Below, piece by piece: positions 3,332 to 11,035 of a DNA stretch of 17,768 nucleotides. The stretch comes from Thermoproteota archaeon (GTDB lineage: Archaea > Korarchaeota > JAOZGF01), in contig JAOZGF010000269.1 of the NCBI GenBank assembly GCA_027491845.1, forward strand, positions 1 to 17,768, in the 5' to 3' direction. The notes beneath the pieces are model-generated. The model was not told the origin of the DNA. It saw only the letters and a program-made list of their open reading frames with translations, and did not search any database. The position numbers were made by a program, and so were the translations under genes. The stretch's first letter is position 1. Each line of letters begins with the position of its first letter.

Positions 3332-4414
3332 ATGAAGAACATGACGACGACAGGTATAATATACAGTGAAAAATACCTCCATCATGATACAGGCCCATTC
3401 CACCCTGAGTCACCTCAAAGACTTACCCAGGCAATGAGGGCCCTACAAGAAAACAAGTTGGTAAACGAAAAATGCAGAATAATAGAGCCAAGGAAAGCAA
3501 GCACGGAAGAAATCAAACTGATACATCGCGAAAACTACATAAACCAAATAAAGAAGATAAGTGAACGAGGAGGAGGACACCTTGATTCAGACACGGTTTT
3601 ATCTAGGGAGAGCTATGAAGTGGCATTGTTAGCGGCTGGAGGACTGCTAAAGGCATGTGAAAAAATACTGGAGAAAGAAATAGTTAATGCTTTCGCCTTG
3701 GTGAGGCCCCCGGGACACCATGCAGGAAGGAATGGGAGAGCGCTCTCAGCAACCTCAACAGGCTTCTGCCTATTCAACAACATAGCCATAGCAGCCCAAA
3801 ACCTCATCAAAAAACAAGGAATCAAAAAAATCCTGATACTAGACATAGACTGCCACCACGGCAACGGAACACAAGAAATATTCTACAAAACACCCCAAGT
3901 ACTATTCATAAGCCTACACCAACACCCATACACACTCTACCCTGGAACAGGATACATAGAAGAAATAGGTGAAGGAGAAGGAAAAGGATACAACATAAAC
4001 ATACCGTTACCGCCCCAAACAAGCGACGACACCTACCAAAAATGCATAAACGAAATAGTAACACCAATAACAGAACAATACAAACCACAATTCATACTAG
4101 TCTCAGCAGGATACGACGCATACAAGGGAGACCCAATAACAAACATGAACCTAACAACACACACCTACCGACACATTTTCAAACAAACATTAAAACTAGC
4201 GGAAAAACACGCAAACAAAAAAATAGCAGTAACACTAGAGGGAGGATACGGAGAAGGCCTCAAAAAAGCACTATGCACAACAATAGCAACACTATCAAGC
4301 CAAAAATACGAGGCAAAGGAAGAAAAAACAAAATCCACACAGGCAGTTGCACAAAAAACAACGGAAACAATACAAAAAATAAAAGAAACACTAAAACCAT
4401 ACTGGCAAATCTAA
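3332..4414 (+). CDS. Histone deacetylase-like amidohydrolase (class II HDAC / acetoin-utilization AcuC superfamily)
   Basis: Zinc-dependent deacetylase fold. In prokaryotes such enzymes act on acetylated small amines (for example polyamines) or acetyl-lysine; the substrate here is unknown. All catalytic landmarks are present: RPPGHHAG with H129-H130, the zinc ligands D173 and H175 in DIDCHHGNGTQ, the third ligand D262 in SAGYDAY, and the transition-state tyrosine Y306 in LEGGYG. The length of 360 is normal to slightly long; the last 35 residues form a Lys/Thr/Gln-rich tail. GGTAAGGATT just upstream may be the ribosome-binding site for the ATG at 3332; ATG 3341 is an alternative. Composition changes within the gene: from about 3780 the coding strand becomes very poor in T and G, so Thr, Asn, Lys, Gln and Pro codons dominate although the motifs remain intact. 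It is transcribed towards the tRNA. Confidence 0.92.
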   Translation: MKNMTTTGIIYSEKYLHHDTGPFHPESPQRLTQAMRALQENKLVNEKCRIIEPRKASTEEIKLIHRENYINQIKKISERGGGHLDSDTVLSRESYEVALLAAGGLLKACEKILEKEIVNAFALVRPPGHHAGRNGRALSATSTGFCLFNNIAIAAQNLIKKQGIKKILILDIDCHHGNGTQEIFYKTPQVLFISLHQHPYTLYPGTGYIEEIGEGEGKGYNINIPLPPQTSDDTYQKCINEIVTPITEQYKPQFILVSAGYDAYKGDPITNMNLTTHTYRHIFKQTLKLAEKHANKKIAVTLEGGYGEGLKKALCTTIATLSSQKYEAKEEKTKSTQAVAQKTTETIQKIKETLKPYWQI

Positions 4415-4539
4415 AACAAAACAAGGAAAAAACCACTAAAAAAATTTAAAAAAACTAAAAGCAAATCAATAACAGAGGAAAACAAAAACCAACTAAAAAA
4501 CAAAAGAGGAAAGAGTGGGGGAGTGGTCGAGTTTGACAC

Positions 4540-4571
4540 TAGCGTTGGGCTAGGCCAATTGTTAGGTTAGA
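4540..4571 (+). other. Putative D-arm tRNA intron (22/23 position)
   Basis: A 32-base insertion. The four bases TGAC (4534-4537) can pair with GTTA (4566-4569), flanked by ACT (4538-4540) and GAG (4570-4572), which resembles the central helix and two 3-base bulges of a splicing-endonuclease site. Much of the insertion can also fold as one hairpin (4539-4548 with 4555-4565), which competes with the bulge on the left side. The exact boundaries are therefore uncertain. Confidence 0.45.
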
Positions 4572-4586
4572 GATGCCTGCCTGGGG

Positions 4587-4597
4587 TGTTAACAGTT
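4587..4597 (+). other. Canonical 37/38 tRNA intron of 11 bases
   Basis: TGTTAACAGTT lies after G37. CTG (4581-4583) pairs with CAG (4593-4595) as the central helix with a fourth, mismatched G-A step; the bulges are GG^T and TT^C. This is a minimal bulge-helix-bulge site, and the intron is near the lower size limit known for archaeal tRNA introns. Confidence 0.65.
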
Positions 4598-4633
4598 CGC
4601 AGGTGGTCGAGGGTTCAAATCCCTCCTCCCCCA

Positions 4634-4650
4634 TTTTGTTTAGTTTTTTT
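4634..4650 (+). terminator. T-rich terminator of the tRNA gene
   Basis: A four-T run starts at the base after the discriminator (4634-4637) and a seven-T run follows (4644-4650), as expected for archaeal termination at oligo-T. The whole following region is also unusually T-rich, so the signal is not isolated. Confidence 0.5.
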
Positions 4651-4881
4651 CTCAGTGGTTTTATGAGGTTGTTTGGTTAGCTTTTGGTTTTGTTTTTTAT
4701 TTTGTTTTTGTTGATTGGTTTTCTGGTGTTTTTCTGGTTTTTTGAGCGTTTTTGGCGGCGTCTTTTCTTTGAGGTCTTTTTCTTTGGCTGTTTTTGTTTT
4801 CCAAATTTTTTTAAGAGTTCATGAGGGAGAGTTCTGAGAGGTCTTGTTTTCTTTTGAGGGTGTTAGGCTTAATATGCTTGC
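4651..4881. other. G+T-rich stretch without a recognisable gene
   Basis: The plus strand is almost only G and T (55 of 60 bases at 4681-4740; 50 of 60 at 4741-4800). No intact frame is supported. It may hold the eroded 5' part of the ATPase pseudogene that becomes readable from 4882. Confidence 0.5.
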
Positions 4882-5697
4882 ACTGGCTCCGCAGGCTCTG
4901 GTGAGACTAATTTTATTATTGATGGTCTTGTTAGGAAGTGTTGCAGCGATTTTTTTAGGGTTTTTGAGCTTAAGGATGAGTATGTTTGTTTAAGGGATTT
5001 GATTTTGGAGTAAATGTTTTCGTTGCTGGTGATGGTTTGAGGATTAATTTTTTGGAGAACCCTGCCCATGTTAATGATGATTTATGGATTCCTGCTTTGG
5101 CTGAGGCTTTTTGTCATGCTTATAATCTTAGGGAGTCTTCTAGGAATATTTTGCAGAAGGCTGTTAAGTTTGTTAAGTCGGATTTGATTGATGAGGTTAA
5201 GAGGTTTAGGGCTAGGTCTGAGGGAGAGGGGGCTTAGAGGAGTACTTTGAGCAGGCCTGAGCTTCTTGTTTTCGGGAGGATGGGTAAGGTTTTCAATGTG
5301 AGCAAGGGTCTAGGAATTGAGGATTTGATTAATGGAGTAACTGTCTTTGATTTGTCCTGTGTAGGCAGCGTTGAAGACAGGAGGTTTATCGTTGAAGTTC
5401 TTATTAACGCCTTATTTGAATTTTAAAAAGGAACAGTTAAAAAGGAACAGGCTGAAAAAGCACTCGAAAATTATTCCTGAGGAAGCTCATAACTATCTGC
5501 CTGAGGAGAGACCTCCTGAGCGGAGGAAGATTTACTCCAGGACGAAGACTGTTTTCGCAGAGCTGAGGGAGTACAATGCTTCCTTTATAGCTGTAGACCA
5601 GCAGCCTTCCATACTAAGCAACTTCGTCCTTGCAAACACTCCTGCAAAAGTGTTCTTCAGGCTTGAAAGGGATGAAGACGTTGAAATGGTTTATTAA
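4882..5697 (+). pseudogene. HerA/FtsK-like (DUF87/COG0433-type) ATPase, decayed
   Basis: Four pieces in different frames line up in the order of a HerA-like DNA-translocase ATPase. First, 4882-5015 reads TGSAGSGETNFIIDGL, a Walker A motif whose lysine is Glu. Second, 4986-5237 contains DGLRINFLENP, then WIPALAEAFCHAYNLRESSR. Third, 5280-5426 contains GVTVFDLSCVG and RRFIVEVLINALFEF. Fourth, 5371-5697 contains KIIPEEAHNYLPEERPP (Walker B region), then FIAVDQQPSILSNFVLANT and VFFRLERDEDVEMV. Such ATPases pump or unwind DNA in chromosome repair, conjugation or integrative elements. Several frameshifts and the K-to-E change mean it is dead. The N-terminal domain is not recognisable. Lying just downstream of a tRNA gene, it could be what remains of an integrated element; that is inference. 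Confidence 0.75.
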
Positions 5698-6100
5698 AAA
5701 AGATTAATCCCAAAACGAAATATCAGAAGCACTAAAAACCTCAAAACCAACATAAAATATATAAGGAATTAAAAGAAGCAGAACTAATTTAAGAAGAGCG
5801 ATACTAAGAGACAGGAAACCGGTTAAAACCTACAAACTAAGCATAAGAGAACTAGAAAGAATAATTGACCTAGCCAGACCATGTAAACGAAAAAGAAGGA
5901 AAAAGCTTTTTACAGAAAAATAAAATAACCACAAAGAGAAAACAAAAATGTGAAAAACAAAGGAAACCGATAATTAAGTAAAGGTCGTCAATTGTTTGGA
6001 GTTACACAGAGAAAAAAATTAGCTGTAAGTTGCACGGAAAACCTATGTTCATTAGCCTGCCAATCGTTTCACTAAGTTATCACCTGTTTGAATGAGTTTT
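5698..6100. other. A-rich gene-poor stretch with a 46-codon fragment
   Basis: No intact gene. A 46-codon open stretch on the plus strand (5783-5923) ends KTYKLSIRELERIIDLA then a Lys/Arg-rich tail and TAA. It could be the far 3' end of the ATPase pseudogene or another eroded gene. The plus strand is poor in G and T (14 of 60 at 5701-5760). Confidence 0.4.
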
Positions 6101-7405
6101 TTAGAAGGGGAGTATGTATTTTGTGTTTTTTCCTTTTCCTTCCTTTATTATGAGGCCTTTTTTCTGCATTTTTCCCAGTATTTTTCTTACTGTGCTTTCT
6201 TTGAGTTTCAGTTTTTTTTCGAGTTCCCTTCTTGTTATCTTTCTTTTTTCTAGGAGGTAATTTAGGATTTTTCTTTCATTTTCCGCTGTTTCTTGGGTGT
6301 ACCTGCTTTTTATTGTTGCCTTGAAGTAATGGTTTGAGTTAAAGATGGGTTCGCCGTTTCCGTTTATTAAGCATTTTTTTAGAACTTGTAGGGTTCCTAT
6401 TCCCCACTTTTCTATGTAGCCTCTGTTGTAGAGAATGTTTGCTATTTTTGGGTTTCTTAGTATTGATCTGTGGGGTTTTTTTAGGTCTTCTATAGTTATG
6501 CCTGGCGGAAGTCCTCCAGGGTTTTCTATTTCGATTTTGTCGTTGAATATTTTTATGTAGATTGGGCTTTGTATTGAGTAGTCTCTGTGAGCTACAGCAT
6601 TTATAATGATTTCTCTCAGTGCTTCAGGGGGGTATTCATATATTTCTTCTCTTTTCAGTTTTCCAACTTTTATCTCTTTTCTTATAAATGAGATTGTTTC
6701 AACATAGCTCTTCTCTATCTGTTCAAAGAGGTCGCCGCCTATTTCTTTTTCCATTGCAGGGGCTGTTTCCTCCAGGAATCTACCTATTTTCACCGTGGCC
6801 CATGGCACTTTCGCCTGCGGGTTTCCGCCGAATGCTAAGAGAGCTGCCAACTTCACTCTTTCATTCTTCATCAGGCCAAGGCTTTTCAGGACGGATACTT
6901 CATCCTCCGGAATTGAGGTTAACCTTCGGCTTTTCGTTTCTGCGGCGAACTTTTTTATTTTGCCAAGGTCAATGTCCTCAATAGTTGAAACTTCCACGTC
7001 TTCATAGGATAACTGGTATGTTTTCCTGAGGAGATTCACTATTTCGTCTCTATCCATTTTGACGTTGCTCTTGCCAACACGTTTGTAAGCAATTCCTTTC
7101 GCGAAAACAGGCTTATCGCTCCTTTCAGAAACCCTGATCTCTATAACCGGTTTGCCGAAAATTCTTTCAACCTTTATTTCAGGGTAAACCTTTGGGTCTG
7201 TGTTTTGAACAATCTGGTGTGCAAGGTTTTCAAGGGACCCCCTACCCACATCAACGCCCACCACATTGCCATCGTCATCTACGCCCACAAATATGACTCC
7301 CCCCCTAGTGTTGGAGAAAGCCGAAACAGTAACCAGTATATCGCTGAATTCAGACAAAGACCTCTTGAATTCTGTTGTAGTGTCCTCTTTCCTGTTCAGG
7401 TGCAT
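6101..7405 (-). CDS. AlbA_2 (Schlafen-type) / HATPase_c / winged-helix transcriptional regulator (COG2865 type)
   Basis: A predicted DNA-binding regulator of about 434 residues. The N-terminal AlbA_2 domain shows EFKRSLSEFSDILVTVSAFS and GGVIFVGVDDDGNVVG (residues about 12-52). A middle region leads into the GHKL-like domain with EALREIIINAVAHRDYS (about 258-275), then IEIENPGGLPPGI and IEKWGIGTLQVLKKC. The C-terminal winged helix runs from ERKILNYLLEKRKITRREL to KKGLIIKEGKG. Family members are often labelled as transcriptional regulators or, loosely, as RecG-like; the ligand is unknown. The ATG at 7405 is preferred over the TTG at 7414 because the TATA box at 7436-7443 places transcription start almost on it, giving a nearly leaderless mRNA. 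An operator-like palindrome just upstream suggests autoregulation. The 3' half of the coding strand is poor in G and T. Confidence 0.85.
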   Translation of the reverse strand: MHLNRKEDTTTEFKRSLSEFSDILVTVSAFSNTRGGVIFVGVDDDGNVVGVDVGRGSLENLAHQIVQNTDPKVYPEIKVERIFGKPVIEIRVSERSDKPVFAKGIAYKRVGKSNVKMDRDEIVNLLRKTYQLSYEDVEVSTIEDIDLGKIKKFAAETKSRRLTSIPEDEVSVLKSLGLMKNERVKLAALLAFGGNPQAKVPWATVKIGRFLEETAPAMEKEIGGDLFEQIEKSYVETISFIRKEIKVGKLKREEIYEYPPEALREIIINAVAHRDYSIQSPIYIKIFNDKIEIENPGGLPPGITIEDLKKPHRSILRNPKIANILYNRGYIEKWGIGTLQVLKKCLINGNGEPIFNSNHYFKATIKSRYTQETAENERKILNYLLEKRKITRRELEKKLKLKESTVRKILGKMQKKGLIIKEGKGKNTKYILPF

Positions 7406-7435
7406 TTTAATCAATAAGAAAGTTTGTTTGAAAAC

Positions 7436-7475: not shown

Positions 7476-7823
7476 TTACAATGAACATTTATCCATTGTT
7501 AAGCAATATGTTTTTAAAAGGAGAGTTTTCAATAGGGAATTTGACAATGTAGTGAACTACTAAACTACAATTAACCTATAAACCCATACCTAAACCGAAG
7601 ATAAAGGCACATCTGTACTTGATGCAGACCCTTTAATAGCTACAGCGTAGTTTCAACTTGTATGACCCTGAATTTCCAAAATAAACCTTGTAATTAGAAC
7701 TGTCTTTACAAGCGGAGAGTAAAGCCCTTTCAACAAAAATGTTTTTTCATTTAAAGTCTGAAAATCTTTGGTTAAATTATTTATTAGCAGGCTTATACTT
7801 TATCATTGAGTAGGTTGTGGCTC
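7476..7823. other. Intergenic region with an orphan promoter-like repeat
   Basis: No gene is seen. It holds the second copy of the 23-base promoter-like repeat (7561-7583). Near the MNT gene, CTTATACTT (7792-7800) is a TATA candidate that would start transcription close to the ATG at 7824. Confidence 0.4.
7561..7583 (+). promoter_or_regulatory. Second copy of the 23-base promoter-like repeat
   Basis: Identical to 1251-1273 at 22 of 23 positions, including ATTAACCTATAAAC with its TATAAA box (7577-7582). No ORF starts in the 220 bases downstream, so it may drive a non-coding RNA, act as a distal promoter for the MNT-HEPN pair, or be a leftover of a duplication. Confidence 0.5.
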
Positions 7824-8267
7824 ATGTGCTTGGATTTATGCGTTAAGAAATTGCGTGAGAGATTTGGCGACAAAATCGCTGGAGTGGTTTTTTTTGGCAG
7901 TAGGGCTAGGGGAAATCACAGTGTTAAGAGTGATTACGACTTCCTTGTTGTTGTTAGGGACTGGCCTGAGGAAATAGAGAGGAAAAAACAGATTTACCTA
8001 GCTTTAAAAGAGTTGATTCCAGTTGACGTGACAGTCATGGATATAGATGAAAAAAAACTTTTCAAGGAAAACATGGAGGTAGACTATTTCCTCCTAAACA
8101 TTGTTGAGGAAGGAAAGATTCTGTTTGATCCATCAAAGAGGCTTTCATTGCTTTTCAAGAAGGTGAAGGAGTTAATTGGGAAAGCAGGACTGGAACGATA
8201 CAGGGTTCCTACAGGGGAATACGGGTGGAAAACTAAAGATAACAATTTGAAGACGGTTTCCGTATGA
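7824..8267 (+). CDS. MNT-domain nucleotidyltransferase (antitoxin of an MNT-HEPN pair)
   Basis: A minimal nucleotidyltransferase of 148 residues. The motif GSX10DXD is exact: G25-S26 in FFGSRARG and D37/D39 in SDYDFLVVV, with the third carboxylate D68 in IPVDVTVMD. Known MntA proteins silence HEPN toxins by adding AMP groups to them. The ATG at 7824 is chosen because it begins the segment shared with the decayed copy at 8947 and a TATA candidate at 7792-7800 would start transcription there; a TTG at 7806 would add six residues. The stop overlaps the HEPN start as ATGA, so the two are translationally coupled. The order, antitoxin first, is common for toxin-antitoxin pairs. Confidence 0.85.
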   Translation: MCLDLCVKKLRERFGDKIAGVVFFGSRARGNHSVKSDYDFLVVVRDWPEEIERKKQIYLALKELIPVDVTVMDIDEKKLFKENMEVDYFLLNIVEEGKILFDPSKRLSLLFKKVKELIGKAGLERYRVPTGEYGWKTKDNNLKTVSV

Positions 8268-8695
8268 AGCTTAACCCTAAACGCGAGATAATTTACAGAG
8301 TTAAACTTGCAAAAAAATTTTTGGAAGAAGCTGAAAAACATTTTAAGAATGGAATGTATAGAAACGCGGCCTCAGCCTCGCAGCTCTCAGTTGAGAACGC
8401 GGTTAAGGCAGTTATTGCAACTAAAAGGATTCCAAGCTGGGCTCATGATCCCTCAAACGAATTATTGGAACTAATGGAATATTTTTCACCCTACTTAAAA
8501 GAGAAAATAAAAGAACTTGCACTTATAGCGAGGGAAACAGCGCCTGTACACAGCGAATCAACGTATGGAAAACCCTTAGAGGGCCTAACTCCCTGGGACA
8601 TCTTTACAAAGAAAAGAACGAAAGCCATCCTAGAAAATGCGGGGAAAGCCGTGAAACTAATGGAAGAAATACTCTCAAGAACAAATCACTATTGA
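8264..8695 (+). CDS. HEPN-domain protein (toxin of an MNT-HEPN pair)
   Basis: A helical protein of 143 residues of the HEPN type (COG1895/COG2250-like). Seen: LAKKFLEEAEKHFKNGMYRNAA and LSVENAVKAVIATKRIP in helices 1-2, then a candidate RNase motif R90-ETAPV-H96 (R-x5-H, within the R-x4-6-H range), followed by SESTYG and TPWDIFTKKRTKAI. HEPN toxins cut RNA, typically as dimers. In the classical HepT the motif is R-x4-H-x-Y; here no Tyr follows at +2, and the nearest is Y101 at +5. It overlaps the MNT gene by four bases. An active RNase toxin neutralised by the neighbour is likely but not shown. Confidence 0.8.
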   Translation: MKLNPKREIIYRVKLAKKFLEEAEKHFKNGMYRNAASASQLSVENAVKAVIATKRIPSWAHDPSNELLELMEYFSPYLKEKIKELALIARETAPVHSESTYGKPLEGLTPWDIFTKKRTKAILENAGKAVKLMEEILSRTNHY

Positions 8696-10843: not shown

Positions 10844-11035
10844 ATGATTAAGTACGTAAAGGTATCAGCTAAAATAGACGTGGAACTTAGGAAGAGGTTG
10901 CTGAACTAGGCATAAAACCATCGGGGGTCATTAGGAAATCTCTTGAGGAAGAGGTGGAGAAGGATGAGACAAAAGCTTCATGAGAAGGTTGGGGAAGCAA
11001 GATAATTTTAAGTGTTGGTAAGGACGCTGGTTAAA
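10844..11035 (+). pseudogene. VapB-type antitoxin, decayed
   Basis: From ATG 10844 the sequence reads MIKYVKVSAKIDVELRKRLL, then a frameshift and stop. Another frame continues ELGIKPSGVIRKSLEEEVEK, and a third gives KLHEKVGEAR. Joined together they match the usual archaeal VapB layout: an N-terminal ribbon-helix-helix type strand and helices, then a charged helical tail that holds the toxin. At least two frameshifts and several stops kill it. It lies directly upstream of the PIN remnant, the normal vapBC order. Confidence 0.72.

Follow-up and report, generated by a model that had tools for sequence, protein, structure and literature searches.

A sharp strand-composition reversal at an archaeal tRNA gene and its possible link to transcription

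Introduction

Why should the two strands of an archaeal chromosome exchange their composition at a tRNA gene? The question is raised by a contig of 17,768 bases (C27, here called the window) from a korarchaeotal draft genome of 1.36 Mb, which comprises 293 contigs and is 71% complete. A sequence-only reading of this DNA had noted that A+C dominates the plus strand to the left of a tRNA gene and G+T dominates it to the right. That reading proposed either a bidirectional origin of replication or stable R-loops at a highly transcribed gene, with strand-biased deamination. Here we describe the size and shape of the reversal, its imprint on silent sites, and its occurrence at other RNA genes. The same-order genomes nearest to the host among those compared are designated G001 and G002.

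Results

The compositional reversal is real, and the counts behind it proved exact when repeated. G or T (keto bases) occupies 33 of 120 plus-strand positions at 4021–4140 and 22 of 120 at 4381–4500, then 55 of 60 at 4681–4740, 50 of 60 at 4741–4800 and 43 of 60 at 5161–5220. Measured over 300 bp, the keto step at 4512 is 0.517. The next-largest step in the sampled host genome is 0.183; the sample comprises 60 unmasked stretches totalling 299,539 bases with overlaps counted (39 contigs that were unmasked out of 60 selected, together with 20 tRNA loci and the window). The largest N-free steps in the fetched relatives are 0.307 in G001, 0.287 in G002 and 0.243 in L082, high values in L232, L240 and L241 being runs of N that were left out. 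In sixty windows simulated under a second-order Markov null, the maximum step averaged 0.14 and did not exceed 0.19.

The bias had been described as fading slowly over about 800 bases on each side. Segmentation instead resolves four blocks with abrupt edges. Block 1 (3775–4514) has an A+C-rich plus strand, a keto fraction of 0.25 and a sharp left edge, and is followed by the G+T-rich block 2 (4515–5424, keto 0.70). Block 3 (5425–6084) is again A+C-rich at 0.40, and block 4 (6085–6699) is G+T-rich at 0.69; beyond it keto is 0.51. A second reversal of the same polarity, absent from the sequence-only reading, therefore begins near 6085, where a search of 5700–6300 for an RNA gene gave no Rfam match at E values up to 1.

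Three protein-coding genes lie in or across these blocks. A histone deacetylase family gene (3332–4414, plus strand; PF00850, 1.1e-99) has near-ordinary codons from 1 to 137 and almost exclusively A- or C-ending codons from 138 onward. Third positions in codons 119–137 include eleven G/T, and those in codons 138–167 include none. Named relatives by deacetylase sequence include Thermoprotei and Bathyarchaeota drafts at 36–50% identity. Apart from the window itself, neither a GTDB-220 scan nor the best 120 of 8000 scored candidates in a protein search yielded anything above about 59% identity to the deacetylase, and hence no same-genus DNA with which to polarise recent changes. To the right of the tRNA gene lies a broken ATPase gene (4885–5697, plus strand), presumably HerA-like, whose three pieces were delineated by tblastn with an open, unbroken homologue from G002. 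The pieces have no Pfam match; a stop codon interrupts the frame near 5235, and a tandem duplication of 14 bp occupies 5423–5450, at the edge between blocks 2 and 3. A Schlafen AlbA_2/RecG C-terminal-like gene (6101–7414, minus strand; PF04326, PF13749) follows, and its 3′ part (codons 236–437) is mostly A/C-ending on its own coding strand.

The tRNA gene itself (4517–4633, plus strand) matches RF00005 at 46.3 bits. Rfam assigns 38 additional nucleotides to the D loop and 14 to the anticodon loop, perhaps introns, and the fold of 4510–4640 has a z-score of −3.98. ARAGORN missed the gene at default settings; with introns allowed it reports Gly(gcc) in a layout that differs from that of Rfam. 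The list of 20 tRNA matches in the host genome lacks this gene, and further tRNAs may be absent from it too. Inverted repeats flanking the tRNA gene were considered as homology and rejected, since they look like an effect of composition.

Silent sites in deacetylase codons 141–360 are near saturation. Four-fold sites there are A.74, C.17, G.06 and T.03, against a baseline of A.30, C.20, G.17 and T.34 in 175 ORFs of the host genome. Two-fold sites carry T at 0 of 46 pyrimidine positions and G at 5 of 54 purine positions, where the baseline is 46% T and 38% G. The HerA-like piece at 5010–5400 is the mirror image, with four-fold T.69, G.08, A.14 and C.08, G at 15 of 17 two-fold purine sites and T at 25 of 30 pyrimidine sites. 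Nine 60-codon windows of the deacetylase gene have third-position keto values of 0.02 to 0.12; across 2,501 such windows in the sampled genome the mean is 0.474 (sd 0.088), and only two, both in L163, reach 0.12 or less. The deacetylase reading frame is open throughout despite the loss of plus-strand T and G from its silent sites, and the amino-acid composition encoded by codons 141–360 is raised in T, K, Q and I and lowered in V, R, S, A and F.

A selective cause, acting through codon usage or RNA structure in place of mutation, is the least probable of the explanations that we weighed. In its favour, the A- or C-ending codons left of the tRNA gene could be read by exact-match anticodons. The change nevertheless sets in midway through a gene and is reversed in another plus-strand gene to the right, and non-coding stretches are biased as well.

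Comparison with homologues bears out the predicted opposite polarity on the two sides of the tRNA gene, in pairwise differences rather than polarised substitutions. In codons 141–360, two-fold silent differences from the orthologs in G002, G001, L072 and L073 run 25:0, 18:1, 12:0 and 17:1 in the predicted direction, or 72 of 74 when summed. In codons 1–139 the same comparisons give 13:6, 9:5, 5:4 and 4:5, a weak bias or none. The HerA-like pieces, for which G002 supplies the only homologue, differ from it in the mirror direction at 26:4 (the piece at 5010–5400) and 14:3. Amino-acid changes at conserved columns of codons 141–360 (63 rows, two of them misread on the wrong strand) divide into 5 predicted, 2 reverse, 6 transversions and 5 other, and are too sparse to decide the matter. 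Right-side four-fold sites are few, and their T excess is partly common to both genomes, at 19 of 28 here and 16 of 28 in the G002 homologue.

The spectrum itself departs from the C-to-T and A-to-G transitions that had been proposed. At four-fold sites left of the tRNA gene, T>A differences from the four orthologs number 12, 10, 12 and 8, and T>C differences 5, 7, 1 and 4, so transitions alone are no explanation. This result bears on a model in which the tRNA gene repeatedly suffers double-strand breaks or collapsed forks, followed by error-prone resynthesis of the plus strand rightward and of the minus strand leftward. Refilled strands would have the right polarity, and the 14-bp duplication in the broken gene sits at a block edge. 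A polymerase prone to G·T mispairing would produce only transitions, however, in conflict with the strong transversion to A, and resection predicts a gradient rather than sharp edges. We regard this explanation as very unlikely.

The two halves of the deacetylase have different closest relatives, which raises the question of one origin or two. The N half (codons 1–139) is clearly nearest to G002, at 66% identity with the next relative at 58%. The C half (codons 141–310) is 61% identical to G002 and 62–63% identical to several others. When G001 is compared with G002, conservation is higher in the C half, at 67% against 57% for the N half. From these identities, either change has been faster in the C half here, an outcome expected of extra mutation, or that half has come from a foreign source. 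The blocks would then be recombined or imported DNA from a strongly strand-biased donor, with crossovers in conserved stretches such as the tRNA gene and a deacetylase motif. The position of the left edge, just ahead of codons 144–150 (the GFCLFNN motif), suits such an import, as does a reversal in G001 at the WWDYG codons of an aglB-like gene described below. The lack of special closeness of the C half to G002 also weakens the case against it. A C half that changed faster would look no different, though, and the nearest-protein lists of the two halves, compared without G002, share 4 of 10 entries. Polarity flips within the region would still require a cause in the donor. We judge import to be improbable.

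We next consider whether tRNA genes in general carry such a step. Centring on the tRNA gene is supported in G001, G002 and G038 but not at the other tRNAs of the host genome, where 12 other clusters average only +0.013 (19 of 20 tRNAs used; L046, at a contig end, was left out). A tRNA gene is thus not sufficient. In the same-order genomes the mean step at tRNA clusters is +0.060 in G001 (n=25) and +0.088 in G002 (n=13), and none of 20,000 draws of random positions reached either mean. At 200–600 bp the values are +0.045 (p 5e-5) and +0.064 (p 1.5e-4). For G001, 32 of 35 tRNAs were used, the three lowest scores being dropped, and 29 entered part of the analyses; for G002, 15 of 21 were used, one lying beyond the fetched stretch and five having the lowest scores. 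Along the first 400 kb of G001 contig C9, tRNA genes lie within 100 bp of five of the ten largest up-steps, and across the 666 kb of that contig tRNA-adjacent positions make up 4 of the top 20 up-steps and 0 of the top 20 down-steps.

Farther afield the pattern is uneven. G038, a single contig from a distant archaeal lineage, averages +0.043 over 30 unclustered tRNAs (of 32) against a background of −0.004. Its extreme case is a gene abutting a tRNA, presumably ValS-like from its sequence, with third-position keto down to 0.00–0.04. G017 gives a mean of +0.038 at nine tRNA loci (of its 28 tRNAs, 10 loci were cut out for analysis, one of them at a contig end). The mean is only +0.006 at 21 tRNA loci (of 26) from other families of the phylum, and 12 other archaeal genomes average +0.015 at 26 loci of 30, three of which lie at 0.13–0.24, one being the G038 case.

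Other RNA genes were compared in the same way. Steps at signal recognition particle (SRP) RNA genes (five used of six found in seven genomes) are +0.22 in G030, +0.17 in G001, +0.20 in G002, +0.07 in G038 and −0.02 in G017, so that the reversal occurs in three of the five genomes, is weak in G038 and is absent from G017. The SRP RNA gene of G001 lies about 7 bp from a tRNA. No reversal is seen at two RNase P RNA loci (G001 and G002) or at the rRNA operon of G001, and 330 protein-gene starts in G001 deviate by just −0.008 and +0.002. Gene orientation was rejected as a cause: 330 non-tRNA junctions in G001 average 0.001–0.014 by class, with a maximum of 0.137. Junctions in G001 that contain a tRNA average just −0.001 to 0.029 when centred on the midpoint of the gap rather than on the tRNA.

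The skew also occurs in a relative away from any tRNA, an outcome that the sequence-only reading had set against itself and that is found in part. The largest step in G001, 0.307, lies inside a gene that we take to be aglB-like, at the codons of a WWDYG motif. Across the surrounding 20 kb Rfam matches nothing but a tRNA some 11 kb distant, so a tRNA gene is not necessary either.

A replication origin makes specific predictions of its own. The chromosomal bidirectional origin suggested earlier was not borne out. We looked at five of the 13 orc1/cdc6 matches, and none has a comparable step (0.107 for the two on host contig C25, 0.113 and 0.147 in G001, 0.107 in G002). No orc1/cdc6 gene lies beside the site; both host matches are on C25 rather than on the window contig, in a genome that is 71% complete. 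Positions 1–400000 of G001 contig C9 have no strong long-range skew, with 10-kb keto bias between −0.117 and +0.079. A chromosomal origin at the site is unlikely.

Local initiation or restart of replication at the tRNA gene is a narrower form of the same idea. Leading strands would depart both ways, and lagging-strand templates (minus to the left, plus to the right) would be bare in an abortive bubble of about 750 bp resembling a mitochondrial D-loop. In the mitochondrial D-loop, C>T and A>G changes accumulate on a displaced strand with defined ends; that system is driven by replication, and it differs from the window in involving one strand and acting at the scale of the whole genome. The strand geometry of such a bubble is identical to that observed, and the extent of the blocks is sharp and nearly symmetric. 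Blocks 1–4 also resemble a miniature of the factory-roof skew, and one G038 tRNA with a raised step (609201, 0.117) has an orc1/cdc6 match some 2.4 kb away. For a comparable switch at mammalian promoters, origins are named as an alternative (PMC2927911). The absence of a comparable step at the five orc1/cdc6 matches examined and of strong long-range skew in 400 kb of G001 argues against local replication too, as do the greater effect upstream of tRNA genes close to the gene and its sharing by some SRP RNA genes. We think local replication unlikely, if less so than import.

The distance profile of the effect bears on the direction of transcription. Averaged across 77 tRNAs from three genomes, the keto fraction of the nearest 100 bp is 0.458 upstream and 0.513 downstream; the upstream value rises to about 0.48 by 700–800 bp and holds close to that level as far as 1500 bp. 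Within 300 bp, without clustering, the upstream deviation (−0.041) exceeds the downstream one (+0.016) in size, with a p value of 0.017 for the asymmetry. Farther out the orientation asymmetry has p 0.07 at 100–500 bp and p 0.40 at 300–900 bp.

Discussion

The explanation that we favour, at a little under even confidence, is a domain of strand-asymmetric mutation tied to transcription of the tRNA gene, perhaps through divergent transcription or R-loops. We prefer transcription-linked exposure because of the stronger deviation close upstream of tRNA genes, the involvement of some SRP RNA genes, the lack of a comparable step at the five orc1/cdc6 matches examined, and the divergent promoters and mammalian switch already on record.

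Strong transcription from the tRNA promoter would proceed in both directions, rightward through the tRNA with read-through and leftward as a putative antisense transcript beneath the deacetylase gene. A candidate TATA-like element, AAATTTAAA, composed only of A and T, was picked out by inspection at 4442–4450. The non-template strand of each transcript (plus to the right, minus to the left) would be single-stranded and might be kept so in R-loops. Damage to the bare strand would then include loss or oxidation of purines (A>T, G>T) besides deamination of C (C>T) and of A (A>G). In the long term free sites would become T, or G where only a purine is allowed, and the drift of the putatively bare strand toward T, or toward G where a purine is required, fits several kinds of single-strand damage. 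The sharp block edges would mark the ends of transcripts or R-loops, and a second bidirectional start, which may lie near 6085, would account for blocks 3 and 4.

Several observations speak for transcription. Polarity is opposite at silent sites and between genes on the left and right of the tRNA gene. The left spectrum (A.74, with T>A exceeding T>C) suits several kinds of damage better than wobble errors alone. Extra mutation would also predict the lower-than-expected identity of the deacetylase C half to G002 (61% as compared with 66% for the N half).

Other observations speak against it. A decaying process should not leave silent sites almost saturated all the way to a sharp edge at 750 bp; the edges could come from an abortive bubble of fixed length or from recombination with a normal allele. 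Twelve other tRNA clusters of the host genome, two RNase P RNA loci and the G001 rRNA operon lack the reversal, and the reversals at 6085 and in the aglB-like gene have no known RNA gene. The orientation asymmetry weakens with distance, and the four-fold T excess on the right is partly shared with the G002 homologue. By analogy with mammals, the A>T component would also count against transcription, as it does not switch upstream there (PMC2927911).

Eukaryotic tRNA genes have been linked to raised mutation before. Thornlow et al. 2018 reportedly described tRNA transcription as a mutagen, with effects that stay near the gene and are not known to include a keto reversal across hundreds of bases.

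The closest published parallel comes from mammalian CpG-island promoters, where an asymmetry of A>G over T>C switches at the start site and antisense transcription or replication is proposed as the cause (PMC2927911). As here, A>G and A>T changes are in excess downstream of the start on its non-template strand, and the A>G/T>C bias is opposite upstream (PMC2927911). The mammalian case, as set out there, concerns Pol II genes, weak rate ratios, no upstream switch in A>T and upstream skews near zero (PMC2927911), whereas the window has near-saturated composition, an archaeal tRNA gene and sharp edges. A germline hotspot at human transcription starts, where excess mutation extends several hundred bases both ways, is tied in its report to divergent transcription and R-loops (PMC12658150). 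As described there, it is a hotspot of population rate at protein-coding genes (PMC12658150), whereas the window records an equilibrium composition.

Archaea have a known means of divergent transcription. Within BRE-TATA-BRE promoters a single TATA element can fire both ways (PMC6640164). Such promoters would supply the proposed antisense transcript, and the portion of that work bearing on them describes no mutational consequence (PMC6640164). Nucleotide skews in archaeal genomes have been treated as whole-genome GC skew (PMC12999951). Local archaeal skew is a subject of that paper likewise, and its main text, in which the word tRNA does not occur, describes no tRNA-centred keto reversal (PMC12999951). 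Among the titles and abstract openings listed from mostly open literature (at most 15 of up to 104 papers per search), none reported a keto reversal at archaeal tRNA genes.

A stronger proposal, which we consider doubtful but worth stating, is that some archaeal tRNA and SRP RNA genes keep a standing displaced single strand of about 750 bp on each side, on opposite strands, as a stable feature of chromosome architecture, with silent sites at full strand-asymmetric equilibrium. Were this the case, such sites could be recognised directly in raw sequence.

If transcription-linked exposure is right, composition alone would mark where an uncultured archaeon keeps its DNA single-stranded. Transcription of a tRNA gene would then be linked to local mutation strong enough to rewrite codons and to alter the amino-acid use of neighbouring genes. 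On that reading, too, a jump in codon usage within a gene need not signify gene transfer.

Composition reversals and gene remnants

The tRNA gene at 4517-4633 of the window, which lies at the main composition reversal, carries extra sequence in both its D loop and its anticodon loop. A second abrupt switch from A+C to G+T occurs at 6085, and Rfam gives no matches in the window between 5700 and 6300. G001, a 1.9-Mb draft genome of the same order, has a strong reversal with no tRNA nearby (C9:293655, equivalent to L196:13655), located within an open, aglB-like gene at the codons for its WWDYG motif. All 35 tRNA matches listed for G001 (150 of 188 candidates scored) fall on this single 666-kb contig, C9. 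In the archaeon's own draft assembly, a further ORF of this kind, at L163:4880-5452 (G000:C45), has a third-position G+T fraction of only 0.08-0.20, and ARAGORN found no tRNA there.

Paired nucleotidyltransferase and HEPN genes occupy 7806-8695 of the window, in the usual MNT-HEPN toxin-antitoxin layout. Inside the broken HerA-like gene, a 14-bp tandem duplication (5423-5450) coincides exactly with a composition block edge. A further broken HerA-like gene, in the same-order genome G002 (C119:10243-10466 and 10869-10976), lies near a tRNA with a raised step in G+T fraction (0.18), and such broken genes are perhaps remnants of integrating elements.
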